From: an uncultured Ruminococcus sp.
GTDB lineage: Bacteria > Bacillota > Clostridia > Oscillospirales > Ruminococcaceae
Direction: 5' to 3'
NCBI GenBank assembly: GCA_934463425.1
Contig: CAKSJP010000005.1
Span: 1 to 64,000, forward strand
Length of the DNA: 64,000 nucleotides
The notes under the pieces were generated by a model. The model was not told the origin of the DNA. It made no database searches and worked only from the letters and a program-made list of their open reading frames with translations. Shown in pieces: positions 14,636 through 51,436 of this stretch; position 1 is the stretch's first letter; each line of letters begins with the position of its first letter. The position numbers were made by a program, and so were the translations under genes.

Positions 14636-15610
14636 TCAGTTTTGATGGCAGATTTGTTCCTGTGTCTGCATGGGATAGCAGACAAGCTGACTGCTGTCCA
14701 GATCTTCGTGGTGCATGTGAACCGCAGAGATCTGGTGATTGTTGTAGGTGCTGTAGTAATAGATGCCCCTGTCCGCATTGCAGCAGGAAGTGTAAATGGT
14801 GATCTCATACTGTTCGTCTCTCACTTCGCAGCATCCGCGCTGTTGATCGACTGCACCGAGAATGTGGAAAAATTGGCTGACGCTTTCTGTTTCTGAGTCA
14901 CCGGAAATCGCATTTGCCCGGACAAATGCTGCCCGTATAAAACGTGACTGGGACGACAGGTCACCGGGGAGTCCCAATGCACCCATGCCTCTGCTGTATG
15001 ACCGCAGCGGCAGCTCCTTTGAAAAAAGATTTTCGGGCTGTCTGGGAGAGAGATGCATATAGTCATTGAGCCGGAACATCTGTTCCGGAAAGGGTGGATT
15101 GTTTGTCAGCACACCGGCAGGATTTTCATAGACGTGGATTCCGTCTGCCGTGGCTTCCACCGTAATGGCCTGCGTTTTGTCGGCAATGATCCAATGCAGC
15201 TGTGCCGCCGGCATCTCCGCATGAAACGGTGTATCCAGGAGATTGAGCCGCCGGATCCGTTCTCTTGCTTCGGCAGCAGTGGCACACTGACTGAGAATCC
15301 ATGGGATAAATTCGTATTGTGCGACATTTTCCCTGTCATCTGGTTTGTTGGAATAGTGTGCATTTCCGACAAAGTTCAGCCCTGCCATGCAAAGCCCCTT
15401 TTCATTGACAGCATCATAGAAAAGCGGATATCCATTGGCAACATGCGCAGTACCAATCACTGCATAGTGCTGTTCTGATACGCTCATATGCAGAAATGGT
15501 AGCTTGTACTTTCGCGGAAGAATGACGATTTCTTCGCCGTATGAACTTTCATAGTCTAAGGTTCTGCCAAAATAAAAGTCTTTGGTTTGATAGGTTGCAG
15601 CAGTACACAT
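14636..15610 (-). CDS. bsh: Choloylglycine hydrolase family enzyme, probable bile salt hydrolase
   Basis: 324 residues. An Ntn hydrolase whose mature form begins at Cys2 (MCTAATY), with Arg16 and Asp19 in GRTLDY, Asn79 in NEKGLCMAGLNF, Asn170-171 in GVLTNNPPF and Arg223 in SSQSRFIRAAF. These are the catalytic set of bile salt hydrolases and penicillin V acylases. Length and the NEKGL..AGLNF block favour bile salt hydrolase. ATG 15610 follows AAAGGAG; no signal peptide. It is first gene of an operon with tetR. Substrate (taurine or glycine conjugates) cannot be read from sequence. Confidence 0.88.
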   Translation of the reverse strand: MCTAATYQTKDFYFGRTLDYESSYGEEIVILPRKYKLPFLHMSVSEQHYAVIGTAHVANGYPLFYDAVNEKGLCMAGLNFVGNAHYSNKPDDRENVAQYEFIPWILSQCATAAEARERIRRLNLLDTPFHAEMPAAQLHWIIADKTQAITVEATADGIHVYENPAGVLTNNPPFPEQMFRLNDYMHLSPRQPENLFSKELPLRSYSRGMGALGLPGDLSSQSRFIRAAFVRANAISGDSETESVSQFFHILGAVDQQRGCCEVRDEQYEITIYTSCCNADRGIYYYSTYNNHQISAVHMHHEDLDSSQLVCYPMQTQEQICHQN

Positions 15611-15630
15611 TTGCAAGCTCCTTTCAGGGA

Positions 15631-15672
15631 TATGATGAATCATATTATAACATAAAATTGCGAAAAATGCAA
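15631..15672 (-). promoter_or_regulatory. bsh promoter and candidate operator
   Basis: Minus-strand -35 TTGCAT, 17-bp spacer, -10 TATAAT (15644-15649). Just downstream, TATGATGAATCATA (15631-15644) is a 6+6 dyad between -10 and ribosome site, a plausible TetR operator. Confidence 0.6.
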
Positions 15673-19831: not shown

Positions 19832-20514
19832 GTCATATCTGTATCATTGAAGATGATGCGGCAATTGCTGAAATCGAACGGGACTATTTGGAAATCAACG
19901 GCTTTACCGTATCGATTGCAACAGACGGCGTATCCGGGCTGAATCTGACAAAGGAGGAGAAATTTGATCTGATTTTGTTGGATCTGATGCTGCCGCAGCT
20001 GGACGGCTTTACCCTTTGCCGAAAGCTGCGGGAGCGGCTGGATATTCCGATTCTTATGGTGACAGCCAAAAAGGAGGACATCGACAAGATCCGCGGACTG
20101 GGTCTTGGTGCAGATGATTACATTGTCAAGCCCTTTTCACCGGGAGAACTGGTGGCAAGAGTGCAGGCGCATATTGCCACCTATAAGCGGCTGAAAGCAC
20201 CGCAGGAAGTACAGGAGGACATTGTGGCAGGCACACTTCGGATCTGTCCCAAATCGCATCGTGTATTTGTACGGGAACGGGAGATCGTCCTGAAGAATAA
20301 GGAGTATGAACTGCTGCTGTTTCTGGTGACCAATGCTGATACTGTATTTGATCGGGAAACGCTGTACGAGCGCATTTGGGGCATGGATGCCATGGGAGAC
20401 AATGCTACCGTTGCAGTACATATCAATCGGCTTCGGGATAAGTTGGAGGAAGATCCTTCTCATCCGAAGTATATCGAAACAGTGTGGGGCGCAGGATATC
20501 GTTTTCATGCCTGA
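19828..20514 (+). CDS. OmpR/PhoB-family response regulator
   Basis: 228 residues. Receiver domain with acidic pocket IIEDDAA, phospho-acceptor in LILLDLMLP and Lys in DDYIVKPFSPGEL; C-terminal winged helix (about 130-226) with LLLFLVTNADTVFDRETLYE and TVAVHINRLRDKLEEDP. ATGA overlap with the kinase gene. It ends before a hairpin at 20537. It may regulate the P-type ATPase upstream. Confidence 0.94.
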   Translation: MSHICIIEDDAAIAEIERDYLEINGFTVSIATDGVSGLNLTKEEKFDLILLDLMLPQLDGFTLCRKLRERLDIPILMVTAKKEDIDKIRGLGLGADDYIVKPFSPGELVARVQAHIATYKRLKAPQEVQEDIVAGTLRICPKSHRVFVREREIVLKNKEYELLLFLVTNADTVFDRETLYERIWGMDAMGDNATVAVHINRLRDKLEEDPSHPKYIETVWGAGYRFHA

Positions 20515-20536
20515 TGCAATGTGCCGCATAGAGAAA

Positions 20537-20567
20537 AAAGCGTCTGAACAGGTGGTTCAGGCGCTTT
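20537..20567 (+). terminator. Hairpin terminator after response regulator
   Basis: 13-bp stem AAAGCGTCTGAAC with GTTCAGGCGCTTT (one G-T pair), 5-base loop, ending in TTT; a short T run makes it moderate. Confidence 0.65.
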
Positions 20568-20576
20568 GATCGTTAA

Positions 20577-20669
20577 GGCTTGTTTGAAAAATCCGGACAT
20601 TTGTCAAAATACCTATAAACCATTGTCTGTGCATTTTTTCAAACAGCGCTGTTTTTCAAATAACCCCTA
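20577..20669. repeat. Small MITE-like repeat (93 bp)
   Basis: The ends are inverted copies of GGNTTRTTTGAAAAA (GGCTTGTTTGAAAAA on the left, GGGGTTATTTGAAAAAC as reverse complement on the right). Related sequence recurs at 46520-46690, 47886-47945, 43505-43550 and weakly near 63865. It is non-coding. The rest of 20670-20878 shows no gene. Confidence 0.55.
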
Positions 20670-20878
20670 GGAAGAATGGAATGGGTGATGGTATTTTGGC
20701 TGACAACCGGAATGCATTTACTGGTGCTGTGATCGCCAATTTTGTGCTCCAGCACAAGAAACAGATTTTGACCGCACAGATTTTATGGTTTGTCACAAAA
20801 TATCTATCACGCTTTTATGTAAAAATCCAGCAGAAACAGAATGATCATTGGAACATCTGATAAATCTGCACAAAACGA

Positions 20879-20907
20879 TTGACACCGAATACGCAGCATG
20901 GTATACT
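20879..20907 (+). promoter_or_regulatory. Promoter of the pyrimidine cluster
   Basis: TTGACA, 17-bp spacer, TATACT; start of a roughly 145-nt leader before the first gene. Confidence 0.85.
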
Positions 20908-20999
20908 AAATACATCAAAGGAAAACAAAACAAAACAAATGAAAAGAAAGCGCTGAATGCAAATACTTGATGCGCGATCAAAATGAAACAGAATGATAT

Positions 21000-21044
21000 A
21001 AAGCGGCAATGGGGCTGTAACAAGTTCCCGTTGTCGCTTTTTTT
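21000..21044 (+). terminator. Intrinsic terminator in the leader of the pyrimidine cluster (attenuator)
   Basis: About 15 pairs between AAAGCGGCAATGGGG and TTCCCGTTGTCGCTTT, including G-T pairs, followed directly by T7. It sits between the promoter at 20879 and the first start codon at 21064, so full-length transcription of the cluster needs readthrough. The 90-nt leader before it holds GCGC/GCGC pairing (about 20950-20976) that could form an alternative structure. No known riboswitch class is recognised. Confidence 0.7.
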
Positions 21045-21063
21045 GATTTAGGAGATGAGCATT

Positions 21064-21843
21064 ATGGCAGAACTGCAAAACAAAGTTGAAATCCACATGG
21101 AACACATCGGGATGGTTTATCCTGCCGACGGAAAAGAGGTCACTGCACTGACGGATGTGACACTGGACATTCAAAAAGGTGAGTTTGTTTCCCTGGTCGG
21201 CCCTTCCGGATGCGGTAAAACAACGCTTTTGCGAATCATGGCGGATCTGCTTCAGCCGACATCCGGCGTGATTACCGTCGGCGGCACATCTCCTCGTGAA
21301 GCAAGATTAAAGCGGCGCTATGGTATTGTGTTCCAGGGTGCGGTACTATATGACTGGCGGACTGTTCAAAAAAATGTGGAAATGCCTCTGGAGATCATGA
21401 AGATTCCAAAGGCAGACCGGGTAAAGCAAGCAAAGAAAATGCTGGAGCTTGTCAATCTGACAGAATTCGCCGATCATTATCCGAAACAGCTTTCCGGCGG
21501 CATGCAGCAGCGTGTGGGAATTGCCAGAGCTCTTGCGATCCAGCCGGAGATCCTGCTGATGGATGAACCGTTTTCCGCATTGGATGAGTTCACACGGGAA
21601 AAGCTTCACGATGACCTGTTGAGTATTTGGCGAAAGACCAACAAGACGATCATTTTCGTAACCCATAACATTGCAGAAGCGGTGTATTTGTCTGATAAGA
21701 TCTGCGTCCTTTCACCGCATCCCGGCAGACTTTCCGCCGTTGTTCCAGTGAACCTGCCGCGTCCGCGCACCAAGGCGATGAAGGACACCATGGAGTTTAC
21801 CGATCTGGTGGCAAAGGTGCGGAACAGCTTTGAGGGTGTATGA
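21064..21843 (+). CDS. ABC transporter ATPase, nitrate/taurine/THI5-type, pyrimidine cluster
   Basis: 259 residues. Walker A GPSGCGKTTLL, signature LSGGMQQRVGIARALA, Walker B EILLMDEPFSAL, H-loop VTHNIAEAV. ATG 21064 chosen over 21055 because AGGAG abuts the latter. It is the energy subunit for the two permeases and the binding protein that follow and is of the SsuB/TauB/ThiZ type. Cluster context points to uptake of a pyrimidine or a degradation intermediate. Confidence 0.92.
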   Translation: MAELQNKVEIHMEHIGMVYPADGKEVTALTDVTLDIQKGEFVSLVGPSGCGKTTLLRIMADLLQPTSGVITVGGTSPREARLKRRYGIVFQGAVLYDWRTVQKNVEMPLEIMKIPKADRVKQAKKMLELVNLTEFADHYPKQLSGGMQQRVGIARALAIQPEILLMDEPFSALDEFTREKLHDDLLSIWRKTNKTIIFVTHNIAEAVYLSDKICVLSPHPGRLSAVVPVNLPRPRTKAMKDTMEFTDLVAKVRNSFEGV

Positions 21844-21859
21844 TAAAGGAAGTGATACC

Positions 21860-22708
21860 ATGAAAAAGATTCGCCGTATCTTAGAGGCAAAATGGCTGGT
21901 CATGCTGGTTTGGCTGGCAGGCGTTGCCGTAGTCTGGGAGGTATTTGCTTTCCGCGTAGAAGCGGTGAAGCGAACACCGGAAAACATCATGCCGCATATC
22001 TGGCAGATCGTTCAGGCGATCTTCAGTACTGATACTGTAACACGAGATCAGACTGCATTGCAGGTTGTGCTGACAAGCGCCGGACAGACGCTGGAACGTG
22101 CAGCTTTGGGATTTCTGATCGGAACGATTTTGGGATTTGCCCTGGCACTGCTGATGCATCTGTTCCGAGGCGTGGAAAAAACCGTTTCGCCGTATCTGAT
22201 TATCATTCAGGTTATTCCGATCCTGGGTATGGCACCGATTGTTTTGGCGATCACCGGAGATATTGGTGTATCCCGAATCGTCATTGCAGCGATCCTGACA
22301 TTCTATCCGGTGGCTGCCAATACGCTTTCCGGATTCCGGGCAACGGAGCGGGAGAAAAAAGAGCTGATGTATTCTTATGCAGCCAATAAGTTTCAGCTGT
22401 ATACCAAAACCTATATTCCCAACTGTATTCCCTATTTTTTCACAGGCTTGAAAATTTCAGCACCGATGGCAATTACCGCATCGATCCTGGTGGATACTCT
22501 GCAGGGCGACGGCGGTCTGGGGTGTATGCTTTCACAGGCGCAAAAGCACGCGATGTCCATTTATGTATTCTGGCTGATCGTCCTGTTCAGCGCCTGTATC
22601 GGTATCCTTAGCTTTACCGTAATGGGATGGCTGGAAAATGCAGCATGTCCTTATCGGCGCACCGGAACGCACAGGAGAGGGGGAAAACGACATGGCAAGA
22701 AAAAATAA
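21860..22708 (+). CDS. ABC transporter permease 1 (pyrimidine cluster)
   Basis: 282 residues, about 6 membrane helices, with the inner-membrane coupling loop EREKKELMYSYAANKFQLYT. ATG 21860 follows AAGGAAG. The 3' end overlaps the next permease by 17 bases. A basic C-terminal tail is encoded in the overlap. It forms the heterodimeric channel with the next gene product. Confidence 0.9.
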   Translation: MKKIRRILEAKWLVMLVWLAGVAVVWEVFAFRVEAVKRTPENIMPHIWQIVQAIFSTDTVTRDQTALQVVLTSAGQTLERAALGFLIGTILGFALALLMHLFRGVEKTVSPYLIIIQVIPILGMAPIVLAITGDIGVSRIVIAAILTFYPVAANTLSGFRATEREKKELMYSYAANKFQLYTKTYIPNCIPYFFTGLKISAPMAITASILVDTLQGDGGLGCMLSQAQKHAMSIYVFWLIVLFSACIGILSFTVMGWLENAACPYRRTGTHRRGGKRHGKKK

Positions 22709-23501
22709 AAACCGGAAACGGTGGGATGCTGTGACAACAGTTGTTTATCCGCTTCTGTTTGCAGTCCTGCTGATCGCAGCCTGGCAGACAAAGCTTTTAC
22801 ACCGTCTGCTGCATGTGGACACCTTTATTTTGCCCATTCCCACGCGAATCCTGACGATTATCCAGGAAAACTGGGGAGCGATCGCAGAGAATCTACAGTC
22901 TACTGTGATCGTGATCGTAATCGGATTGCTGGCTGGATCTCTGCTGGGATACCTCATTGCGCTGATCGCAGCTGCTTTTCCGCACTGGGGCGCCGGCGGT
23001 CTGACCATTGTGTCATGTTTCAACGCGGTGCCTGTGGTTGCACTGGCACCGGTTATCATCAACTGGACCAGAGATGTGAGCAGCGATGTGGCATTCCGCA
23101 GTATGGTGGCGAAATGCATTGTGGTTATGATTTTCTGTACTGCGACCATGAGCATCAACGCATTTCGGGGACTGACAGAAGTGAAACCCTTTTCAGAAGA
23201 TCTGATGCGTTCTTATGCAGCAAACCGTTTTACAGTTTTCTGGAAGCTGCGGCTGCCGAACAGTATTCCCTATATCTTTACCGCGCTGCATGTCAGTGTG
23301 CCGCTGGCAGTCATTACTGCAGTGGTCAGCGAATACTTTGCCGAGTACATTATCGGTGTAGGCAGAATGATTCGCGAAAATATCGTCACTGCACAGTACG
23401 CGACAGCATGGGCATATATTATTGTTGCCTGTATTCTGGGTATTGGAATGTACCTGATCTCAATTTTATTGGAACGTCTGTTCCTGCGGAAGCATAAGTA
23501 A
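22692..23501 (+). CDS. ABC transporter permease 2 (pyrimidine cluster)
   Basis: 269 residues; ATG 22692 with GAGAGGGGG upstream, inside the end of permease 1. About 6 helices and coupling loop EDLMRSYAANRFTVFWKLRL, closely parallel to permease 1, so the pair arose by duplication. It is followed after 66 bases by the binding protein. Confidence 0.9.
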   Translation: MARKNKNRKRWDAVTTVVYPLLFAVLLIAAWQTKLLHRLLHVDTFILPIPTRILTIIQENWGAIAENLQSTVIVIVIGLLAGSLLGYLIALIAAAFPHWGAGGLTIVSCFNAVPVVALAPVIINWTRDVSSDVAFRSMVAKCIVVMIFCTATMSINAFRGLTEVKPFSEDLMRSYAANRFTVFWKLRLPNSIPYIFTALHVSVPLAVITAVVSEYFAEYIIGVGRMIRENIVTAQYATAWAYIIVACILGIGMYLISILLERLFLRKHK

Positions 23502-23567
23502 GCATTCCGCAGTGTGATAGAAAAAAGTAGTATTGGGCAAAACGCCCGCACCATGAAAGGATGATGG

Positions 23568-24695
23568 ATGATGAAAAAGCAGATGAGAGCAATTGCCATT
23601 TTTTGCGCAGCCGTATTGATGACCGTTTCCGCAACCGCATGCGGCAGCAGCAGTAAGGATTCTTCGGGCAGCAGCAGTGCTTCAAAGGGGAATTATTTCG
23701 ACCCCGGCACTTCGTCGGAGGATATCATCAAGGCAGCTTCTGCCGCCGGAAAGATCGGCAACTGGGGCATCGGCAATGAATATGAACTGCTTGCCCTGCT
23801 TACCAAGTATGACCTGCCCAATGAATTTGTCAGCCAGGCGTTCGACATGGATAGCTTTGATGATGATTCTCTGATGCTGGCATCTGCCATGACTTATAAT
23901 GAGCTGGGATTAGTCAAGAACGACTATGACGGCGGCTATGGCTATGGTGATACGGTCGGTACGATCGATATGAACGATGAGGGAGTAGCTATGCTGGAGG
24001 ACAACATTTTCTGCACCAAGGCATTTGCAGAGGAAAATCCGAACACAGTGGCAGCATTTATTTCTGCCTCCATGAAGGGCTGGGAATACGCTTGTGAGAA
24101 TCCCGATGAGGCAGCAGAGATCGTGTTCAACTATGGCTCTTCGGTTTCTCCAGAGCACCAGAAGTATATGGCAAGTGAAGTGGCAAAGCTGGTTACCACA
24201 GATATGTCCGGCAGCGCAGTGAGTCTGGACGATCTGGGCCAAATGGAAGAAACGGCAATGCAGCAGACCTTGGATCTGGCAAAACAGTATATTAAGCTGG
24301 ATGACTCTGCAGCAGCAGAAAAGCTGGGTACACTGACACTGGATGATGTGCGGGATACTTCTTATTGGGAGACAGCAACCTCGGAGAGCTTCAGTGCTCC
24401 GGAAAAGACAGATGTCACCGTTCAGCTGAAGTGGCTGCCACAGGCACAGTTTATGGGTTACTATGTAGCTCTGGACAAGGGCTATTACAATGATGTTGGT
24501 CTGAATGTAACCATCACACCGGGCGGCGGTGACATTTCGGAAACCACAGCAGTATATAACGGCACAGTAGACTTTGGCGTTACCTGGTTCTGCAATCTGA
24601 TTTCTGCAGATGCTGCCGGCATGGAACTGACAGAAGTTGCACAGGTTTATCAGCGTTCTGGTCTGGAATTGGTTTATAAGCTGAATCAGGATTAA
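23568..24695 (+). CDS. NMT1/THI5-type solute-binding lipoprotein with circularly permuted halves
   Basis: 375 residues. Signal peptide with lipobox SATAC (Cys25) and a Ser-rich linker. Residues 50-265 (GKIGNWGIGNEYELLALL, ASAMTYNELG, NDEGVAMLEDNIF, FISASMKGWEYACENPDEAA) match what is normally the second part of NMT1-type proteins. Residues 283-371 (VTVQLKWLPQAQFMGYYVAL, GYYNDVGLNVTI, TPGGGDISETTA, VDFGVTW, AQVYQRSGLELV) match what is normally the first part, and the protein ends there. The order is therefore swapped, with the break at the first crossover between lobes. Its place after the permeases shows it should be the cognate receptor. Recognition of both halves is firm; the ligand is inferred. 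Confidence 0.88.
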   Translation: MMKKQMRAIAIFCAAVLMTVSATACGSSSKDSSGSSSASKGNYFDPGTSSEDIIKAASAAGKIGNWGIGNEYELLALLTKYDLPNEFVSQAFDMDSFDDDSLMLASAMTYNELGLVKNDYDGGYGYGDTVGTIDMNDEGVAMLEDNIFCTKAFAEENPNTVAAFISASMKGWEYACENPDEAAEIVFNYGSSVSPEHQKYMASEVAKLVTTDMSGSAVSLDDLGQMEETAMQQTLDLAKQYIKLDDSAAAEKLGTLTLDDVRDTSYWETATSESFSAPEKTDVTVQLKWLPQAQFMGYYVALDKGYYNDVGLNVTITPGGGDISETTAVYNGTVDFGVTWFCNLISADAAGMELTEVAQVYQRSGLELVYKLNQD

Positions 24696-24712
24696 GATGG
24701 AGGTGTAGGAAT

Positions 24713-26068
24713 ATGCGTACTCTGATACAGCACGGTACTGTAGTTACCGCAAGCGAAACGTTTTTGGCGGATGTTGCGATTGACGGCGAAACCATCGTGG
24801 AGATCGGAAAGGACATCTCGCCGGAGGGGTTTGACAAGGTGGTAGATGCCAGCGGAAAGCTGGTGCTGCCGGGGGCGATTGATGCGCATACACATCTGGC
24901 GATGCCGTTCGGCGGAACGGTCTCCTCGGATGGCTACTTTGCTGGTACGAGAGCAGCTGCCTGCGGCGGTACGACCACTGTGTTTGACTTTATTCTCCAG
25001 GATTTCGGCGAAACTATGGTGGATGCTATCAAGCGCCGGGACGCTCTTTGCGCACCGGAAGCAGCCGTGGATTATTCCTTCCATGTGGCAGTCAAGGATG
25101 TCAGCGGTGAACTGCTGGACACCATCGGCGATGCCGTGGACTACGGTGTGCCATCGTTTAAAGTATTTATGGTATATGATTTCGGCGTGACAGACGGCGT
25201 GTTTTACCAGGTGCTGCAAAAGGCAAAAGAGGTCGGCGCACTGATCGAGGTGCACGCTGAGAATAATGAGATCATTAACACACTTACAAAGGAGTTTCTG
25301 GCAGAGGGAAAGACGGATGCCTGGTATCATTACGCATCCCGTCCGGAATTTGTGGAAGAAGAAGCAGACAAGCGTGCAATCGCCTGGGCGAAAGCGACCG
25401 GTGCGCCGCTGTATATCGTCCATCTGGCGAACAAAGGCGGCGTAGAAGCTGTGACACAGGCAAAGGATGAGGGCTATCCCATCTATGCAGAGACCTGCCC
25501 GCAGTATCTGGAATTCACCAGCGATGTGTATAAGTTAGAGAATGCACGAAACTTTGTTTGCTCACCGCCGATGAAGGGCGAGGAGAGCCGCCAGGCACTC
25601 TGGGCAGCCATCCGCCGGGGCGATATCGATACCATTGCGACTGACCACTGTCCGTTCCAGTCCTACGAAAAGGATTGGGGCAAGGATGATTTCACAAAGA
25701 TCCCCAACGGCTGTGCCGGCATCGAGAATATGTACCCGTACATGCTCTCTGCGGCAAACAATGGAGAGATCACCTTTGAACAGGCAGTGGCGCTTTGCTC
25801 CACCAATCCGGCACGGATCTTCGGCTGCCAGAAGAAGGGCGCAATCGCTGTGGGAATGGATGCAGATCTGGTGGTCTACGATCCGGAAATGGATTTCGTG
25901 ATTACCAATGACAAGATGCATTCCGACTGTGACCATACCATCTGGGAGGGCTGCAAGCTGCATGGCTATCCGGTACAGACCTATTCCAGAGGCAGACTGG
26001 TCTATGAGAACGGTGCGTTCCTGGGCGAAGCAGGCTGGGGCAATTTTGTAAAATGTAAGTTGAAATAA
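24713..26068 (+). CDS. hydA: Dihydropyrimidinase
   Basis: 451 residues, amidohydrolase fold. Metal ligands in GAIDAHTHLAMPFGG, the carboxylated Lys in VPSFKVFMVYDFG, His residues in LIEVHAENNEII and PLYIVHLANKGG, Asp in TIATDHCPFQ. These match the D-hydantoinase/dihydropyrimidinase group. It opens dihydrouracil or dihydrothymine to the N-carbamoyl-beta-amino acid. AGGTG upstream; 17 bases after the binding protein, so one operon. It acts after the dehydrogenase encoded next. Confidence 0.93.
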   Translation: MRTLIQHGTVVTASETFLADVAIDGETIVEIGKDISPEGFDKVVDASGKLVLPGAIDAHTHLAMPFGGTVSSDGYFAGTRAAACGGTTTVFDFILQDFGETMVDAIKRRDALCAPEAAVDYSFHVAVKDVSGELLDTIGDAVDYGVPSFKVFMVYDFGVTDGVFYQVLQKAKEVGALIEVHAENNEIINTLTKEFLAEGKTDAWYHYASRPEFVEEEADKRAIAWAKATGAPLYIVHLANKGGVEAVTQAKDEGYPIYAETCPQYLEFTSDVYKLENARNFVCSPPMKGEESRQALWAAIRRGDIDTIATDHCPFQSYEKDWGKDDFTKIPNGCAGIENMYPYMLSAANNGEITFEQAVALCSTNPARIFGCQKKGAIAVGMDADLVVYDPEMDFVITNDKMHSDCDHTIWEGCKLHGYPVQTYSRGRLVYENGAFLGEAGWGNFVKCKLK

Positions 26069-26086: not shown

Positions 26087-27577
26087 ATGGCAGAGATGAG
26101 CCGGTGCATGCAGATCAGACTGGAGCAGCAGGCATCACAGTGTATGCTGTGCTATGATGCACCATGTACAGCTGCCTGTGGTGCAGGTGCAGATCCGGCT
26201 GCAATGGTGCGGAGCATTCGTTTTGAAAATCTATCCGGGGCAGCGGAAGCAATGAGAACGGCGGACTGTGCAGCTTGTGCACGCAGCTGTGAACGCGCTT
26301 GTTCCCGAAAGATGCCGCTTGCAGAGATGGCAGCGGCACTTCCGAAAGCCACTGCATCAAAACCGGCGGATCTCTCCATTTCGTTTTGCGGCGTGCCGTG
26401 TATCAATCCCTTTTTCCTATCCTCCTCCGTTGTGGCGAGCAACTATGAAATGTGCGCCAGAGCGTTGGAACAGGGCTGGGGCGGCATTGTATTCAAGACC
26501 ATTGGCTTTTATCAGCCGAAAGAGGTTTCTCCGCGGTTTGATACCGTAAGCCGGGAGGGCTACCCGTTTCTGGGATTCCGGAATCTGGAGCAGATCTCCG
26601 ATCATACATTGGAGGAAAACCTGGAGTGTCTGCGGCGGCTGAAACAGAATTATCCCGATCGTGTGATCGTGGCTTCCATCATGGGAGAAACAGAGGACGA
26701 GTGGACAAAGCTGGCGCAAATGGTAACTGATGTCGGATGCGACATCATCGAGTGCAATTTCTCCTGTCCGCAAATGACGGTAGAGGGCATGGGCAGTGAT
26801 GTGGGAACGAATGTACAGTTGGTAAAAGCATTCACTGCGGCGGTAAAGCGTGGAACGACATTGCCGGTGCTGGCAAAGATGACTCCGAACATTACTGATA
26901 TGACCGTGCCGGCAGTCGCTGCGGTAGAAGCAGGGGCAGATGGCCTGGCAGCGATCAATACCATCAAGAGTATCACCGGCATTGACGAAGAGACCATGCA
27001 GGCGCATCCTGGCGTAATGGGAAAGACCGCAGTCAGCGGTTATTCCGGAAAGGCAGTGAAGCCTATTGCACTGCGCCATATTTACGATATGGCATCTTGT
27101 CCGGCACTGAAAGATGTTCCCATCAGCGGCATGGGCGGCATCGAGACCTGGCGGGATGCGGTACAGTTCCTGGCACTGGGCTGCAGCAATATCCAGATCA
27201 CCACAGCGGTGATGCAGTACGGCTATCGGATCATCACGGATCTGATCGGCGGTCTGACGGATTATATGAATCGTCATGGAATTGCCGCTCTGCAGGAGAT
27301 CGTTGGCGCAGGGCTGGATGCCATGACAACGCCGGAGAAGCTGAACCGCAGTTCTGTTTGTTATCCGAAGTTCCTGCGGCAGGATTGTTCCGGATGCGGC
27401 AGATGTTACATTTCCTGTATGGATGCGGGGCATCAGGCGATCCGGTTCGATGCCGCGGCGCGAAAGCCGACTTTGATCGGAAAAAAGTGTGTGGGCTGTC
27501 TGCTTTGCACGCTGGTCTGTCCTGTAGGCGCGATCACGTCAGGGACGAGGCACTCTGTAAATACTGAGAAGAGGTGA
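26087..27577 (+). CDS. preA: NAD-dependent dihydropyrimidine dehydrogenase, PreA with a PreT-like N-terminal Fe-S domain
   Basis: 496 residues. Residues 1-90 hold eight Cys in two groups (19, 22, 27, 31 and 61, 64, 68, 72), like the N-terminal Fe-S domain of PreT or of human DPYD domain I. Residues about 96-420 are the FMN barrel (GWGGIVFKTIGFYQPKEVSP, IECNFSCPQM, VLAKMTPNITDM, PISGMGGIETWRDA). Residues about 430-490 carry two [4Fe-4S] motifs, CSGCGRCYISCMD and CVGCLLCTLVCPVGA. The FAD/NADPH domains of PreT are absent, and no separate preT lies in the cluster. It reduces uracil or thymine to the dihydro form. Confidence 0.92.
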   Translation: MAEMSRCMQIRLEQQASQCMLCYDAPCTAACGAGADPAAMVRSIRFENLSGAAEAMRTADCAACARSCERACSRKMPLAEMAAALPKATASKPADLSISFCGVPCINPFFLSSSVVASNYEMCARALEQGWGGIVFKTIGFYQPKEVSPRFDTVSREGYPFLGFRNLEQISDHTLEENLECLRRLKQNYPDRVIVASIMGETEDEWTKLAQMVTDVGCDIIECNFSCPQMTVEGMGSDVGTNVQLVKAFTAAVKRGTTLPVLAKMTPNITDMTVPAVAAVEAGADGLAAINTIKSITGIDEETMQAHPGVMGKTAVSGYSGKAVKPIALRHIYDMASCPALKDVPISGMGGIETWRDAVQFLALGCSNIQITTAVMQYGYRIITDLIGGLTDYMNRHGIAALQEIVGAGLDAMTTPEKLNRSSVCYPKFLRQDCSGCGRCYISCMDAGHQAIRFDAAARKPTLIGKKCVGCLLCTLVCPVGAITSGTRHSVNTEKR

Positions 27578-27583
27578 GGTACT

Positions 27584-28729
27584 ATGGCATTAACGCTTTC
27601 ACAGCTTTGTGTCAATGCAGAAAAAACATATCAGCTGAAGCTGATTGCCGGCGAGGATGGCATGGACAATGTGGTGCGTTGGGTGCATATCATCGAAGAT
27701 GTGGAAGTATCTCACTTTATTGAAGGACAGGAATTGGTTTTTACCACAGGTATTGCACAGCATGGTGTCAACTGGCTGATGCCATACGCTGAACAGCTGC
27801 TTCGGCATGGTGCGGTGGGTCTTGTGGTCAATCTTGGTCCGTATATCGAAAAAGTCCCGCCGCAGCTGATCGTCTGGTGCAACACTCACGCGTTTCCGCT
27901 GTTGGTGCTGCCCTGGTCGGTGCATATCATTGATGTGACATATGACTTTTGTCACCGCATCATTCAGAGCGAAAAGCACGAGCGCAGCATTGCATCGGCA
28001 TTCAGCACCTGGATCTTCACCCCGGAAAAAGGGGAGTCTTATTCAGGCATTTTACAGCGTGCAGGATTCCAGGAGAACGGCAGATATCAGGTGATGCTTC
28101 TGCATTTGCAGGGAAAGGAACACCAGCTGACAGATCTGGAGTGGGAACAATTACAGTTTCGGGTCTATCGTGCTCTTCGTAAGACACATTTGTCTATCTG
28201 TATTTTCCGGCTGGAGCAGAGCATCTGCCTGGTGGGACAGAATACCAGGGAAAAACTGCGGCAGTACGTCGAGCAGGTATCCCAGATCTTGTCAGAACGA
28301 GGAAACGTATACTGCGGGATCTCGGAAGAACAGATCGGTTATACGGCATTGTCGGCGCTGTATCTTCAGGCAAAAGCGGCGGATGCAGTCTGTCGGATTC
28401 GGAAAAAGCAGGTGCTCTGTTATTCCGATCTTGGCGTATATCAGATTTTGTTTGGCGTAAAGGATCGAAAGATCCTGGAACAGTTTTCAGAATCGGTGTT
28501 GGGGGCACTGGTGCAATACGATGCCCGGAATCATACAGATTATCTGGAAGTGCTGTACCGCTACCTTTCCACAGAATGCAGCGTGCAGCAAACGGCAGAT
28601 CAGATGCAGGTGCATCGAAATACCATTAACTATAAACTGCGGCAGATTCGTGAGATCTTACAGACTGATCTGGGGCAGGAAGCAAGAGTGCAGATTTATC
28701 TGGCATATCTCATTCGGGATATGCTGTAA
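27584..28729 (+). CDS. pucR: PucR-family transcriptional regulator
   Basis: 381 residues. N-terminal PucR ligand domain (VRWVHIIEDVEVSHFIEGQE, LVFTTGIAQ), a central GGDEF-like fold region, and the C-terminal helix-turn-helix typical of the family (YLSTECSVQQTADQMQVHRN, TINYKLRQIREIL). PucR proteins control purine and pyrimidine catabolism; its place inside the operon, 6 bases after preA, indicates control of this cluster. Confidence 0.9.
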   Translation: MALTLSQLCVNAEKTYQLKLIAGEDGMDNVVRWVHIIEDVEVSHFIEGQELVFTTGIAQHGVNWLMPYAEQLLRHGAVGLVVNLGPYIEKVPPQLIVWCNTHAFPLLVLPWSVHIIDVTYDFCHRIIQSEKHERSIASAFSTWIFTPEKGESYSGILQRAGFQENGRYQVMLLHLQGKEHQLTDLEWEQLQFRVYRALRKTHLSICIFRLEQSICLVGQNTREKLRQYVEQVSQILSERGNVYCGISEEQIGYTALSALYLQAKAADAVCRIRKKQVLCYSDLGVYQILFGVKDRKILEQFSESVLGALVQYDARNHTDYLEVLYRYLSTECSVQQTADQMQVHRNTINYKLRQIREILQTDLGQEARVQIYLAYLIRDML

Positions 28730-28753: not shown

Positions 28754-30082
28754 ATGACAGGCGAAGAGATTCAAAAGATGCAAACTACGTATACCATGCA
28801 GTCCTGGAGCAAGCAGAAGGGTCTGAAACCCATTCCGGTAGAGCGGTCAGAGGGCATTTACTTCTATGATTACAGCGGCAAGCGATATGCGGATATGTCC
28901 TCACAGCAGGTCAATGTCAACCTGGGCTACGGCAACAAGGCGATCGGTGATGCCATTAAGGCTAAGGTGGACAAGTATTGCTACATCGGGCCGTCTTTCG
29001 GTGACGAAGATCGTGCAAAACTGGGCAAGGCGATCATCGACCTGCTGCCGGATACTTTCGGCAAGGTTTTCTTTACCAATGCAGGTGCAGATGCCAACGA
29101 AAACGCCATTAAGATCGCCAGAATGTATACCGGCAGAAACAAGGTATTCAGCCGGTATCGGAGCTATCACGGCTCTTCGTTCGGTGCCGGAAACCTGACC
29201 GGTGAGCCGAGACGCTATCCGCTGGAACCGGGCATTCCTGGATTTATTAAGTTCTTTGATCCGTATATCTACCGGGAACCGCTGGAATTTGCATCCGAAG
29301 AAGAGGCGACCAAGTATTATCTGGCAAAGCTGCGGGAACAGGTGATCTACGAGGGCGCAGATCGCATCGCTGCCATTGAAGTGGAGACCATCACCGGTTC
29401 TAACGGCATTATCATTCCGCCGAAGGGGTATCTGCCGGGCATCCGGAAGATCTGTGACGAGTTTGGCATCGTGATGATCTGCGATGAGGTCATGGCTGGT
29501 TTCGGCAGAACCGGTAAGATGTTTGCCTTTGAAAACTTCGATGTAGTGCCGGACATCATCACCTTTGCAAAGGGTGTGACCTGCGGCTATATCCAGCTGG
29601 GCGGCGTGGCAGTCAGCAAGAAGATCGCAGCGTACTTTGATGAACATTACCTGTCCTGCGGTCTGACCTACAGTGCACATCCGCTGGCGTGCGCCGCCGG
29701 TGTTGCCTGCGTCAACTATTATCAGGAAGCTAACATTCTGGACAATGTGGCAGTATCCGGCAAGGTGCTGGGAGAACTGCTGGAGGATCTGAAAGCAAAG
29801 CATGCCTGCGTGGGTGATGTGCGCTACATCGGTTTGTTCTCCGGCGTAGAACTGGTAAAGGATAAGGCCACCAAAGAACCCCTTGTACCGTATGGAAAAG
29901 ACCCGGACGGCATCATGGGCGGCATTTGCAAAAAATTGATGGCAAAGGGCTTTTCCACCTACAGCCACGAAAACGTAATCATTGTCGCACCGCCGCTGAT
30001 TATCACTCCAGAGCAGCTCCGGGAAGAGATGCAGAAGCTGGATGAGGTACTGGGAGAAGTCGATGCAGCCATTGCCGGCTGA
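28754..30082 (+). CDS. Class III aminotransferase, probable beta-alanine transaminase
   Basis: 442 residues. PLP fold class III blocks: VFFTNAGADANENAIKIAR, FGIVMICDEVMAGFGRTGKM, and the PLP Lys in IITFAKGVTCGYIQLGG. GGAGG precedes ATG. In the reductive pyrimidine pathway beta-alanine or beta-aminoisobutyrate is transaminated to malonate or methylmalonate semialdehyde; position between preA and the carbamoyl amidase supports that role. Substrate is inferred from context. Confidence 0.88.
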   Translation: MTGEEIQKMQTTYTMQSWSKQKGLKPIPVERSEGIYFYDYSGKRYADMSSQQVNVNLGYGNKAIGDAIKAKVDKYCYIGPSFGDEDRAKLGKAIIDLLPDTFGKVFFTNAGADANENAIKIARMYTGRNKVFSRYRSYHGSSFGAGNLTGEPRRYPLEPGIPGFIKFFDPYIYREPLEFASEEEATKYYLAKLREQVIYEGADRIAAIEVETITGSNGIIIPPKGYLPGIRKICDEFGIVMICDEVMAGFGRTGKMFAFENFDVVPDIITFAKGVTCGYIQLGGVAVSKKIAAYFDEHYLSCGLTYSAHPLACAAGVACVNYYQEANILDNVAVSGKVLGELLEDLKAKHACVGDVRYIGLFSGVELVKDKATKEPLVPYGKDPDGIMGGICKKLMAKGFSTYSHENVIIVAPPLIITPEQLREEMQKLDEVLGEVDAAIAG

Positions 30083-30099
30083 AAAAGGAGATGAAGTCA

Positions 30100-30543
30100 A
30101 TGGTATCCGGACATTATGCGAATATCGAGCAAGGGATTCCGCTGCGGTCGCTGCTGCCGGCTGACCGATTTCGCACCGTCTCTCAGGAGACGCGGGACAC
30201 GGTTCCGCTGACACCCAATGAGGTGGCGGTAACTGTGGTCATGAAGCCGGCATTTGTGAAGCGGCTGCACTTTCCGGTATCCTGGGACGGGATCTTGTAT
30301 GGTGTGGTGCGAAAGCCGGAACAGCTCCAGCAGATGGGAACCGATGCAAACGGCACATTCTGGGTGAAGTCGATTTCCTGTAACGACTGGGACGATCGGT
30401 TTCTGCTGGTGCTGGAATCAGATGATCCAGAACACTATCGTGCTTTTTATGTGATGGCAGATGAGGTGTATGATCTTCTGGAAAACTGTCTGCGGATTCC
30501 GGAGCAGACGAACGAAAATGAAAATCCGAACCTGTTTGTATAA
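30100..30543 (+). CDS. Uncharacterised protein of the pyrimidine cluster
   Basis: 147 residues, no signal peptide or membrane helix. ATG 30100 is chosen because AAAAGGAG lies 9 bases upstream; ATG 30091 is too close. The predicted core has beta strands (NEVAVTVVMKPAFVKRLHFP, FWVKSISCNDWDDRFLLVLE) and an acidic Asn-rich end. I recognise no family. Its fixed place between the transaminase and the amidase suggests a part in the pathway, as enzyme, chaperone or sensor. Confidence 0.7.
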   Translation: MVSGHYANIEQGIPLRSLLPADRFRTVSQETRDTVPLTPNEVAVTVVMKPAFVKRLHFPVSWDGILYGVVRKPEQLQQMGTDANGTFWVKSISCNDWDDRFLLVLESDDPEHYRAFYVMADEVYDLLENCLRIPEQTNENENPNLFV

Positions 30544-30609: not shown

Positions 30610-31872
30610 ATGTATACTTGCAGTTTGGAACGGATGAAGGATAAGATCGCAACATTTTCAAAGTTCGGTGATGCCGGACACGGCGGTATTACCCGGTATT
30701 CTCTGTCAGAGGCTGCCATTCAGGCACGAAATGAATTTCGGAAGCGCATGGAAGCAATCGGTGCTGTGATCGAGATCGATGATGTGGCGAATATGTATGC
30801 CACACTTCCCGGCAGTGATCCGAATGCAAAGCGAATCGTGATGGCATCCCATGTGGATTCTGTGAAGAACGGCGGTAACTATGACGGTATTCTGGGTGTA
30901 ATGTCTGCCATGGAAGTATTGGAGACCGTGCACGAAAAGAAAATTCCCCATAAGCATCCGCTGACAGCAATGATCTGGACCAATGAGGAAGGTTCGCTTT
31001 ATCCTCCGGCAATGATGTGTTCCGGTATTGTCTGCTATGACTATCTGCCGGAGGATATCCGCGCGAAGTTTGTCTATGAGGACATGATGCAGTCCAAGAG
31101 CATTCTGGACTGCAAGAGCACCTTTGGCGAAGCACTGGCAAAGTCCGGCTTCCAGGGGGATAAGAAGTATCGCCTGAACCCCGAACAGTATCAGTACATG
31201 TTTGAAACACACATTGAACAGGGCCCGATCCTGGAGGATGCCGGAAATGATATCGGCGTAGTAGACTGCGTTCTGGGTATGTTCAACTATCGCATCCAGT
31301 TCTACGGGCAGACCACCCACGCCGGCACATTCCCTATGCCGAAGCGAAAGGATGCCCTTTATGCAGCGTCTGAAGCATTGTGCTATCTGCATCAGGAAAT
31401 CGATAAGCTGGGTTACGGCGATCTGGTATATACCACTGGTGAGATCGTTTGCCATCCTTGTGTACACACCTGTGTGCCGGATTTCGTGGACTTCTCCTTT
31501 GATGCAAGACATGAAGACCCCAAGGTTCTGGAACAGGTCCTGGCAATTGTCAAGAGCTGTGCCGATAAGGAATGGCACGGCTGCACCTGCAAGGTAGAAA
31601 AGGCGTGGAATCGGGATACAGTTTACTGGGATAAGAAGCTAGTAAGCTATGTGAAAGCGGCAGCAGAGGAATGCGGTATTTCCCATCAGTATATCCACTC
31701 CGGCGCAGGTCACGATGCACAGTTTGCATCATATATGCTGCCCACAACCATGATCTTTGTACAGTCCAAGGATGGACTTTCTCACTGTGAGCCGGAGTAT
31801 TCCAAGCCGGAACACTGCACCGAGGGCGCAACAGTCATGCTGAACGCAGTGCTTCGTGCAGATGAGGATTGA
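30610..31872 (+). CDS. hyuC: M20-family carbamoyl-amino acid amidase, probable beta-ureidopropionase
   Basis: 420 residues. Metal ligands in ASHVDSVKNGGNYDGILG and WTNEEGSLYP, the dimer-bridging block FETHIEQGPILEDAG, THAGTFPMPKRKDAL and SGAGHDAQFAS, all as in N-carbamoyl-L-amino acid/beta-alanine amidases (HyuC, AllC relatives). It releases NH3 and CO2 from N-carbamoyl-beta-alanine. GAAAGGAAG upstream. It ends in front of a hairpin at 31901. Confidence 0.92.
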   Translation: MYTCSLERMKDKIATFSKFGDAGHGGITRYSLSEAAIQARNEFRKRMEAIGAVIEIDDVANMYATLPGSDPNAKRIVMASHVDSVKNGGNYDGILGVMSAMEVLETVHEKKIPHKHPLTAMIWTNEEGSLYPPAMMCSGIVCYDYLPEDIRAKFVYEDMMQSKSILDCKSTFGEALAKSGFQGDKKYRLNPEQYQYMFETHIEQGPILEDAGNDIGVVDCVLGMFNYRIQFYGQTTHAGTFPMPKRKDALYAASEALCYLHQEIDKLGYGDLVYTTGEIVCHPCVHTCVPDFVDFSFDARHEDPKVLEQVLAIVKSCADKEWHGCTCKVEKAWNRDTVYWDKKLVSYVKAAAEECGISHQYIHSGAGHDAQFASYMLPTTMIFVQSKDGLSHCEPEYSKPEHCTEGATVMLNAVLRADED

Positions 31873-31900: not shown

Positions 31901-31939
31901 AACGTGCTGGCGCATCTTGTTTGCATGCGCCAGCACGTT
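31901..31939 (+). terminator. Hairpin after hyuC
   Basis: Perfect 15-bp stem AACGTGCTGGCGCAT with 9-base loop, 28 bases after the stop; little T run follows, so partial readthrough into the alcohol dehydrogenase gene is possible. It is followed at about 31953-31998 by a degenerate copy of the GCACCA..ACAAAG palindrome. Confidence 0.75.
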
Positions 31940-32028
31940 CTAAGGAAAATCTAAGGCAGCACCATACAAAGCCGTCAGGCGTGCTTGGTGTGATGCGGCC
32001 TTGCAGGAAAGGCACAGGGAAAAATATC

Positions 32029-33183
32029 ATGGTCAAGAAATTTACCACAGCACAAACTATTTTTACCGGGTGGGGCGCTTTGCAGGAGAGCGGCGCTGCG
32101 GTTTCGGAACTGGGGGAGAAGCCGTTGGTGGTGACTTCTGCCGGTACCTGGAAGCGTATGGGAACGCAGCTGAATGAGCTGTTTTCCAAGTGCTTTTCAG
32201 CATATGCTGTATGTGACTGTATCAACACAGAGCCGACGGATACCATGATCGCAGAGGGCTTAGAAGTCTATCAGAAAAACGGCTGTGACTGTTTAATCGG
32301 CATCGGCGGCGGCAGTCCGTTGGATGCAATGAAGGCCATCGCCGTGGGTACAACCAGTTCTGCACCCCTTGCTTCTTATATGGGTAAGGAAATCAGCGGA
32401 GTGATTCCGCCCATGGCAGCCATTCCTACCACGGCCGGAACTGGCTCTGAAGTGACAAAGTTCACCATTATCACGGATACCAAAACTGATGTGAAAATGC
32501 TGTTGAAAGGCGAGGTGCTCTTGCCAAAGCTTGCAATTGTAGATGCCAGTCTGTCAGAAAGCACACCACAGTCTGTGACAGCTGCCACCGGATTGGATGC
32601 GCTGACACATGCCATTGAGGCGTATACCTCGAAACAGGCACAGCCACTGACCGATGCCTTGGCAATATCTGCGGTAAAGCGTATTTTTCAGTACCTGCCG
32701 CTGGCATATCAGGATGGAAAAAACAGAGAAGCGCGAGAGGAAATGGCGGCAGCAGCTTTGGAAGCAGGCATTTGCATCAACAATTCCAGTGTTACCATTG
32801 TGCACGGCATGAGCCGACCCATCGGAGCACTGTTTCATGTGCCGCACGGCTTGTCCAACGCGATGCTGTTGGAAAAGTGCCTGCAATTCGCACTGCCGGG
32901 CTGTTATGAACGCTTCGGGGCACTGGGACGCGCCATTGGCGCAGCATCAGCGGACAGTACCGATCAGGAAGCAGCAGATGCACTGCTGCAAGCCGTTAAG
33001 CTGCTGTGTCAAACCTGTGAAGTGCCGACACCGGAGCAATATGGCATTGCAAAAACGGCATTTTTCAACGCAGTGGAAAAAATGGCGGCAGATGCCATCA
33101 CCAGCGGCAGCCCCGGAAATACCCGGCGCGAAGTGACTGCAGAGGACTGCGCTGCAATTTATCGCAGCCTTTGGGAAAACTGA
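32029..33183 (+). CDS. Iron-containing alcohol dehydrogenase, probable malonate semialdehyde reductase
   Basis: 384 residues. Nucleotide motif CLIGIGGGSPLDAMKAIA; iron ligands in TGLDALTHAIEAYTS (Asp, His) and VHGMSRPIGALFHVPHG (two His). ATG 32029 chosen for GGAAAGGCACAGGG upstream. It is last in the pyrimidine cluster, where an NAD(P)H reductase is needed to convert malonate semialdehyde to 3-hydroxypropionate; that role is inferred from place. Confidence 0.85.
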   Translation: MVKKFTTAQTIFTGWGALQESGAAVSELGEKPLVVTSAGTWKRMGTQLNELFSKCFSAYAVCDCINTEPTDTMIAEGLEVYQKNGCDCLIGIGGGSPLDAMKAIAVGTTSSAPLASYMGKEISGVIPPMAAIPTTAGTGSEVTKFTIITDTKTDVKMLLKGEVLLPKLAIVDASLSESTPQSVTAATGLDALTHAIEAYTSKQAQPLTDALAISAVKRIFQYLPLAYQDGKNREAREEMAAAALEAGICINNSSVTIVHGMSRPIGALFHVPHGLSNAMLLEKCLQFALPGCYERFGALGRAIGAASADSTDQEAADALLQAVKLLCQTCEVPTPEQYGIAKTAFFNAVEKMAADAITSGSPGNTRREVTAEDCAAIYRSLWEN

Positions 33184-50559: not shown

Positions 50560-50632
50560 AGAAATTGTTTTTTTATAATAGTGTATTAGTGCTGTAAAGT
50601 GCTGATAGATGAGAAAAAAGGAGAGTTTTTGT

Positions 50633-51436
50633 ATGAAACAGAATTGGATGACTCGTTTGCTGGCTGGAGCTGCAGCAGGAACAATGACATTTGCATTGGC
50701 AGGCTGTGGAAATGGTGCTGACAACAAAAAAAGTGCCGACAAGGAAAAGTTCATTGTTGGCTTTGACGCAGCATTTCCGCCTTATGGCTATCAGGATGAA
50801 AACGGCGAGTATGTCGGCTTCGACCTGGATCTGGCTGCAGAAGTCTGCAAGCGGAACGACTGGGAACTGGTGAAGCAGCCCATCGACTGGAATGCCAAGG
50901 ACATGGAACTGAACTCCGGCACGATCAGCTGCATCTGGAACGGCTTTACCATGAATGGCCGTGAGGATGAATATGCTTGGACTGATCCGTATGTGGACAA
51001 CTCTCAGGTATTTGTAGTCAAGGAAGACAGCGGCGTTGCCACATTTGCTGACCTTGCAGGAAAGAGCGTTGCTGTACAGACAGACTCCTCTGCAGAGGCA
51101 GCCCTCAATGAAGATGATAATAAGGAATTGAAGGATTCTTTTAAGGAACTCGTTGTTGTTTCTGATTACAATACCGCATTTATGAATCTGGATTCCAATG
51201 CAGTTGATGCGATCGCCATGGACGTCGGCGTTGCAAAATATCAGATGGAATCCCGTGACGGTTCCTATAAGATCCTGGATGATGTTCTGTCTGCAGAACA
51301 GTATGCAGTTGGTTTTGCAAAGGACAATACCGAACTGCGGGACAAGGTGCAGAAAACACTGGATGAGATGCGGAAAGACGGTAAATTTGCAGAAATTGCA
51401 GAAAAGTGGGGTCTGACAGACTCTGTGATCGATTAA
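50633..51436 (+). CDS. Amino acid-binding lipoprotein, normal domain order
   Basis: 267 residues. Lipobox LAGC (Cys25). The first part EKFIVGFDAAFPPYGYQDEN, YVGFDLDLAAEVCKRN leads to the crossover SQVFVVKEDS, ADLAGKSVAVQTDSSAE, and ends with EIAEKWGLTD. This is the ordinary SBP_bac_3 order, in contrast to its divergent neighbour at 49515-50300. ATG 50633 after GGAGAG. The ligand is a polar amino acid, not further defined. Confidence 0.93.
   Translation: MKQNWMTRLLAGAAAGTMTFALAGCGNGADNKKSADKEKFIVGFDAAFPPYGYQDENGEYVGFDLDLAAEVCKRNDWELVKQPIDWNAKDMELNSGTISCIWNGFTMNGREDEYAWTDPYVDNSQVFVVKEDSGVATFADLAGKSVAVQTDSSAEAALNEDDNKELKDSFKELVVVSDYNTAFMNLDSNAVDAIAMDVGVAKYQMESRDGSYKILDDVLSAEQYAVGFAKDNTELRDKVQKTLDEMRKDGKFAEIAEKWGLTDSVID

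Follow-up and report, generated by a model that had tools for sequence, protein, structure and literature searches.

A circularly permuted NMT1/THI5-type binding lipoprotein in a pyrimidine-degradation operon of an uncultured Ruminococcus

The window analysed here, 64,000 nucleotides of an uncultured Ruminococcus sp. (contig CAKSJP010000005.1, positions 1 to 64,000), encodes at 23568..24695 on the + strand a 375-aa (amino-acid) substrate-binding lipoprotein of the NMT1/THI5 type in which the two halves of the fold stand in swapped order. The protein is read as the receptor of an ATP-binding cassette (ABC) importer for pyrimidine bases that feeds the adjoining reductive pyrimidine-degradation (Pyd) pathway, and as a true circular permutant of the normal-order NMT1-type receptor that fills the same slot in related operons. 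The probability of this reading is put at about 0.88. The domain order is seen in Pfam and PDB matches and in rotation scans, the pyrimidine ligand is deduced from synteny with the Pyd genes, and a comparison with normal-order relatives locates both the new junction and the new termini.

Swapped halves and the new junction

The coordinates, strand and frame of the open reading frame (ORF) are all correct, and its stop codon lies at 24693-24695. At E 0.001 the sole Pfam family in the protein is the NMT1/THI5-like family PF09084 (1.6e-27, 97.3 bits, curated cut-off 20.5), which is matched not as a single collinear domain but as two stretches in swapped order. The best stretch aligns protein residues 293-371 with profile positions 2-80 of 216, so that the start of the profile lies at the C-terminal end of the protein. 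The same arrangement appears against known structures: in PDB 4nmy, residues 281-345 correspond to chain positions 6-69 and residues 137-203 to positions 186-256, and in the ThiY-type 3ix1, residues 283-366 correspond to 5-87 and residues 130-188 to 175-234. The family profile likewise meets 4nmy in two stretches, and a PDB sequence search with the lipoprotein returns distant relatives only.

For the rotation scan, the mature sequence is rotated and its local alignment score against normal-order relatives is then taken. The score increases from 347 to 600 for G507, from 489 to 732 for G661 and from 495 to 739 for G645, with the optimum reached when some residue within 267-279 is made first. 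With the more distant relatives (G591, Qingshengfaniella, Deinococcus taeanensis and Sinorhizobium), rotation lifts scores of 220-323 to 407-477, and the optima are broader. When normal-order proteins are scanned against G507 as controls, all four peak at zero rotation or within 3 points of it, and the highest score among 200 shuffled sequences is 64 against the same protein. Undoing the swap thus turns two partial matches into one full-length collinear match. An earlier sequence-only reading of the window had proposed an NMT1/THI5-type lipoprotein with swapped halves, to be checked by a PF09084 search that allows split domains and by a permutation alignment to ThiY-like structures; the two-stretch Pfam match, the PDB matches and the rotation scans confirm the swapped order.

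The mature protein follows a signal peptide with a lipobox cysteine (residues 1-25, 23568..23642, + strand), recognised from the sequence and the alignment; Cys25 is invariant across 64 aligned rows, and the lipobox pattern is present in 63 of them. The normally C-terminal block comes next (residues 61-271, 23748..24380, +), placed by PDB matches and alignments; by comparison with the known fold, it would comprise lobe 2, the second crossover and the C-terminal part of lobe 1. The normally N-terminal block (residues 283-371, 24414..24680, +), placed by Pfam, PDB and alignments, contains the first half of lobe 1 and finishes with the first crossover strand, close to the end of the protein.

The two blocks are joined at residues 272-282 (SESFSAPEKTD, 24381..24413, +), where alignment with normal-order G507, G591, G199, G661 and G645 shows the old C-terminus (...DTSYWETAT) leading into the old mature N-terminus (VTVQLKW...) through a linker of about eleven residues. 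Across this junction the permuted protein reads DTSYWETATSESFSAPEKTDVTVQLKW, and between positions 265 and 285 the 64 aligned rows hold 19-23 residues; the rotation optimum for the three nearest relatives falls in this region as well. The corresponding normal-order proteins end in SKYWEQAAAK (G507), DTSYWEAATK (G199) or DKYLKLAAK (G661), and their first strand begins DKITLQLKW (G507) or DELTIHLKW (G661). At the opposite site, the crossover strand SGLELVYKLNQD forms the C-terminus of the permuted protein and the fold starts with SSEDIIKAASAAGKIGNWGIGNEYE, the break falling between SGLELVYKLNQD and the SSEDIIKAASAAGKIGNW segment. Normal-order G661 is continuous through this site (...SGLLLVSKKSAGIDSSAKITKATKVGNWGLGNEYE...), the equivalent break position lying between LLLVSKKSAGI and DSSAKITKATKVGNW. 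The new termini are therefore located in the first crossover between the lobes by the alignment with G661, in support of the break point given by the sequence-only reading.

Spread, counterparts and ancestry

The permuted order was followed in 80 loci, the best of 230 species-level matches that a permuted query gave in one-genome-per-species data. In 80/80 the C block comes before the N block; since these are the loci that best match a permuted query, the count shows that the order recurs and not that the normal order is absent. By their record titles, the loci belong mainly to Clostridia and also to Spirochaetes, several of them to isolates. A misassembly, a frameshift or a chimeric gene has a negligible chance of accounting for the swap, although two family entries, P0002 and P0011, are themselves irregular: chance and assembly error are excluded because all 80 loci share the swapped order, isolates among them, and a mean column identity of 67% is kept over the 64 aligned rows. 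P0002 (430 aa, internal duplication) and P0011 (314 aa, internal deletion) are single-member entries with changes inside the C block, perhaps assembly chimeras or products of recombination between repeated QAF motifs.

A protein database search at E 0.001 finds 3590 relatives; the 120 best, as listed, have 78-100% query coverage and 66-96% identity. The 295 fetched proteins comprise 174 with the permuted order, 118 with the normal order and 3 with a C half only. The presence of the permuted form is patchy: full-length matches occur in 5/291 genomes of one class (seed included), to which G193 adds a sixth match that is divided between two contigs; in 1/198 genomes of the Spirochaete phylum, which is the seed itself; and in 5/145 genomes of the family of the Treponema seed (seed included). 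The sequence-only reading would have given way to an already described collinear family having this order as its common form; the permuted order is indeed common in a large family, and the literature search found no description of it.

Normal-order relatives came from a plasmid collection and from genome searches; in the protein database, a search for them with the de-permuted query led to nine entries (examined for long coverage or short length), all permuted. The de-permuted query reaches at least 80% coverage in 30 of 60 plasmid records, the natural order in 0/45. In 6 of 7 annotated plasmid regions with the higher-scoring type, a dihydropyrimidinase gene stands beside a run of ATPase, permease, permease and substrate-binding protein (SBP). 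These regions are from Qingshengfaniella, Roseinatronobacter, two Deinococcus, Thalassospira and Sinorhizobium; in Sinorhizobium and D. psychrotolerans an additional ORF follows the ATPase gene. The seventh, from Azospirillum (L119), has a normal-order SBP without an adjoining dihydropyrimidinase. Of two unannotated records, L123 has a dihydropyrimidinase by similarity search and L121 has none, and the relatives from Rhizobium (L122) and Neorhizobium (L124) lie in operons without Pyd genes. L122 is near a phosphopentomutase gene and L124 near a nucleoside hydrolase gene, a hint of nucleoside or base uptake.

A normal-order SBP also occurs in Clostridia: at Pyd loci in G507 and G614, and next to a 2-thiouracil desulfurase-like gene in G591 and G575, where no Pyd genes are in view; G575 has one normal and one permuted gene in the same genome. 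The desulfurase family PF04463 was tested on the neighbours of G507 and G591. It is found directly 3' of normal-order sister SBPs at L178 8932-9402 and L180 10120-10713, which suggests a cassette for thiopyrimidine or uracil uptake. Larger fused proteins also occur: L152-L156, from the Spirochaete phylum, hold normal-order NMT1 domains within open frames of 531-876 aa.

The normal-order forms nearest to the permuted protein are G661, G645 and G671, in the family of the Treponema seed. The G661 and G645 loci contain the neighbour genes of the window minus the PucR gene, with the alcohol dehydrogenase gene preceding the amidase gene, and the G671 contig terminates inside the dehydrogenase gene. 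After de-permutation, the 375-aa lipoprotein aligns without interruption to G661 and G645 across 320 aa, at 48-49% identity; the identity is 41% to G507 and about 34-39% to the plasmid-borne forms. The moved part alone is 56-57% identical to G661/G645. Normal-order orthologues thus share the slot after ATPase, permease and permease in Treponema-family, Clostridial, alphaproteobacterial and Deinococcus Pyd loci.

Of 80 permuted rows, 32 entered the first tree, 34 a 78-row tree and 26 the half trees and the approximately unbiased (AU) test; the 78-row tree and those after it omit L150_out, L086_out and six normal-order rows, which were redundant or had long branches. In the 78-row tree, the permuted rows form one clade (100/99) on a branch of length 0.62, sister to three Treponema-family normal rows (99/97), and the Clostridial, Deinococcus and alphaproteobacterial normal rows fall outside that pair. 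One change of order suffices on this tree, so by computation the permuted order is single in origin among its normal-order relatives. Spirochaete permuted rows stand in three places among the Clostridial rows, one join being weak (87/63), which suggests repeated transfer of the permuted gene to Spirochaetes.

Several results weigh against a single-gene permutant serving a pyrimidine importer. In the N-half tree (89 columns), the permuted clade lies outside the pair of Treponema-family and Clostridial rows (95/89) and is not sister to the Treponema-family rows. A tandem intermediate with two N halves occurs in 0/155 ORFs and 0/295 proteins. The structure model has modest confidence for lobe 2, with block means of 64-77 over residues 81-130, and some normal-order relatives (L119, L121, L122, L124, G591 and G575) show no Pyd gene.

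The N-half placement, which differs from that in the C-half tree, would suit a fusion of halves from two parent genes in place of a permutation of one, an origin that the authors of PMC4990184, in the part available, thought possible for the treponemal permutant TpMglB-2. Here such a fusion is very improbable. The C-half tree keeps the permuted clade sister to the Treponema-family rows (98/94), the AU test on the N half does not reject that shared placement (p 0.596), and by mean identity the same Treponema-family proteins are nearest to each half, at 55.5% for the N half and 52.2% for the C half, the highest of five groups in each case. Moreover, the junction retains both old termini. The permutation of one gene is thus the preferred origin. 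It would represent a single ancestral event, probably an in-frame tandem duplication followed by loss of the outer halves. The old C-terminus would have become joined to the old mature N-terminus via the short linker, new ends would have opened in the first lobe-to-lobe crossover, and the lipoprotein signal would have been kept at the new N-terminus.

Operon context and proposed function

The importer genes precede the lipoprotein gene on the + strand: an ABC transporter ATPase (21055..21843, PF00005, in 77/80 permuted loci), ABC permease 1 (21830..22708, PF00528, 79/80) and ABC permease 2 (22638..23501, PF00528, 80/80). Together with the Cys25 lipobox, these neighbours mark the protein as the binding lipoprotein of an ABC importer, with signal peptide, lipobox and operon position intact, as the sequence-only reading had stated. 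Downstream, also on the + strand, the dihydropyrimidinase PydB (24713..26068, TIGR02033, 487 bits against a cut-off of 393) is present in 77/80 loci; the three loci without it are short contigs of 7.0, 6.6 and 4.7 kb, and other contigs are short too. It is followed by a PydAc-like dihydropyrimidine dehydrogenase without flavin adenine dinucleotide (FAD) and NADPH domains (26087..27577, NF006183, DHO_dh and Fe-S domains, 73/80) and by a PucR-type regulator (27584..28729, PF07905 and PF13556, 60/80).

Next is a class III aminotransferase (28754..30082, +, PF00202, 65/80), a PydD-like beta-alanine aminotransferase by comparison with the Pyd clusters in the available part of PMC7332683. A 150-aa ORF at 30091-30543 has no Pfam or NCBIfam match; it recurs in 19/80 Pyd loci, and two Pyd loci of the Treponema family have it as well. 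A PydC-like amidase of the hydantoinase/carbamoylase family (30610..31872, +, TIGR01879, 328 bits against a cut-off of 204, 64/80) and an iron-containing alcohol dehydrogenase (31921..33183, +, PF00465/PF25137, 62/80), which may act as a PydE-like malonic semialdehyde reductase, complete the order. The permuted gene is therefore in conserved linkage with Pyd genes, as would be expected of the receptor of a pyrimidine importer.

Because of this synteny, the ligand is most likely a pyrimidine of the uracil/thymine type, perhaps also a dihydropyrimidine, and the importer would bring in pyrimidine bases for the adjacent reductive degradation. A receptor that lost or changed its original job alongside the permutation, turning to dihydropyrimidines, carbamoyl compounds or a non-pyrimidine, is unlikely. 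The long branch of the permuted clade would agree with such a change, as would the thiamin or formylaminopyrimidine bound, by their structure titles, by the wider-family relatives 4nmy and 3ix1. Against it, both forms fill the same slot in Pyd clusters, and the blocks LKWLPQxQFMGYYVA and MTYNE are conserved in permuted and normal forms alike.

For the pyrimidine receptor, the two-lobed fold and its cleft should persist, with the ordinary Venus-flytrap mechanism presumably unchanged. The general topology of type II receptors is the basis for counting the lobe connections after the first crossover is cut. On this count, the lobes would be held covalently by one crossover and not two, the remaining connection lying near residues 146-152, the old crossover strand would become a free C-terminus, and the lipid anchor would enter lobe 2 and not lobe 1. 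A wider hypothesis holds that the single-origin permutation removed one of the two hinge connections and moved the anchor from lobe 1 to lobe 2, that the OpuAC-like order arose by convergence, and that the permuted gene then spread among Clostridia, with several entries into Spirochaetes, owing to a better or different performance of the rewired receptor in its transporter; this hypothesis is tentative and somewhat doubtful. The idea proposed for TpMglB-2, that the anchor became adapted to a Gram-positive or tethered way of life, is insufficient alone because normal-order G507 and G661 also have a lipobox-like sequence; G645 has none.

Elsewhere in the window, a strong sigma-70-like promoter match (11 of 12, with TG before the second hexamer) lies at 20879-20907, upstream of the ATPase gene. 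The promoter scan of 20500-24800 gives 4 matches against 6.0 expected and, being not above chance, no evidence of a promoter. An Rfam scan of the window yields zero matches at gathering scores. A second permuted binding protein, as implied by the word 'again' in the sequence-only reading, was sought by a Pfam scan of 39 of the 74 window ORFs of at least 150 aa; the only other ABC binding protein among these, at 50609-51436, is collinear with amino-acid receptors. A bile salt hydrolase (choloylglycine hydrolase) at 14636-15643, above its NCBIfam cut-off, fits a gut bacterium.

Comparison with known systems

The enzyme genes resemble the Clostridial Pyd cluster with PydAc in the available part of PMC7332683, the window likewise holding PydAc-like, PydB, PydC-, PydD- and PydE-like genes. 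The 26087-27577 product consists of two Fe-S parts and an FMN (flavin mononucleotide) domain, the domain make-up described there for the ferredoxin-dependent PydAc of Clostridium chromiireducens. In the main text of PMC7332683, neither 'transporter' nor 'substrate-binding' occurs. The available passages of PMC11036815, on 5-fluorouracil in Anaerostipes, do not treat this transporter. The lipoprotein is a candidate receptor of a pyrimidine importer of anaerobes, and 5-fluorouracil may be a further substrate of this importer.

TpMglB-2 (Tp0684), 'Type Ic / Cluster Bc' in PMC4990184, is another ABC binding lipoprotein with a naturally permuted sequence, reported from treponemes and Gram-positive gut bacteria. 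It has a Type I fold, binds glucose and belongs to an unrelated family, whereas the 375-aa lipoprotein matches PF09084 only. TpMglB-2 gains a fourth lobe crossover, whereas one of two would be cut here, and its moved part is 13% identical to E. coli MglB, compared with the 56-57% given above for G661/G645.

In sequence order, the best structural matches of the permuted lipoprotein are OpuAC proteins, with root-mean-square deviations above 5 A. OpuAC is permuted relative to ProX according to the available part of PMC2395249; PMC2861598 and PMC10087775, on OpuAC and ProX, do not mention a permutation. The betaine-binding OpuAC of B. subtilis (2b4m, 5nxx, 2b4l, 3chg) has a different ligand family, and the 375-aa lipoprotein has no OpuAC-family match at E 0.001. 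The likeness, which may be one of block order, suggests that OpuAC was permuted independently at a comparable position in the fold. More generally, the case illustrates how fold searches bound to sequence order can miss a permuted family.

The closest known family remains the NMT1/THI5-like binding proteins (PF09084; ThiY-type 3ix1, thiamin-binding 4nmy and Thi5). Within it, the normal-order SBPs of Pyd clusters (G661, G645, G671, G507, G614, Sinorhizobium, Qingshengfaniella and Deinococcus) occupy the same slot among similar neighbours with the usual half order; the known fold would give them two covalent connections between the lobes. A mostly open-access literature search for a permuted NMT1-type or pyrimidine receptor found none, the precedents being TpMglB-2 and CPSARST. 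To our knowledge, natural circular permutations have mostly been inferred between distant proteins. In conclusion, natural permutants of binding proteins are known, and the new element is an NMT1-type, pyrimidine-operon case with an unusually clean before/after pair: permuted and normal forms stand in the same slot at about 49% identity, so that the effect of the predicted hinge cut on closure, affinity and permease docking is directly measurable.
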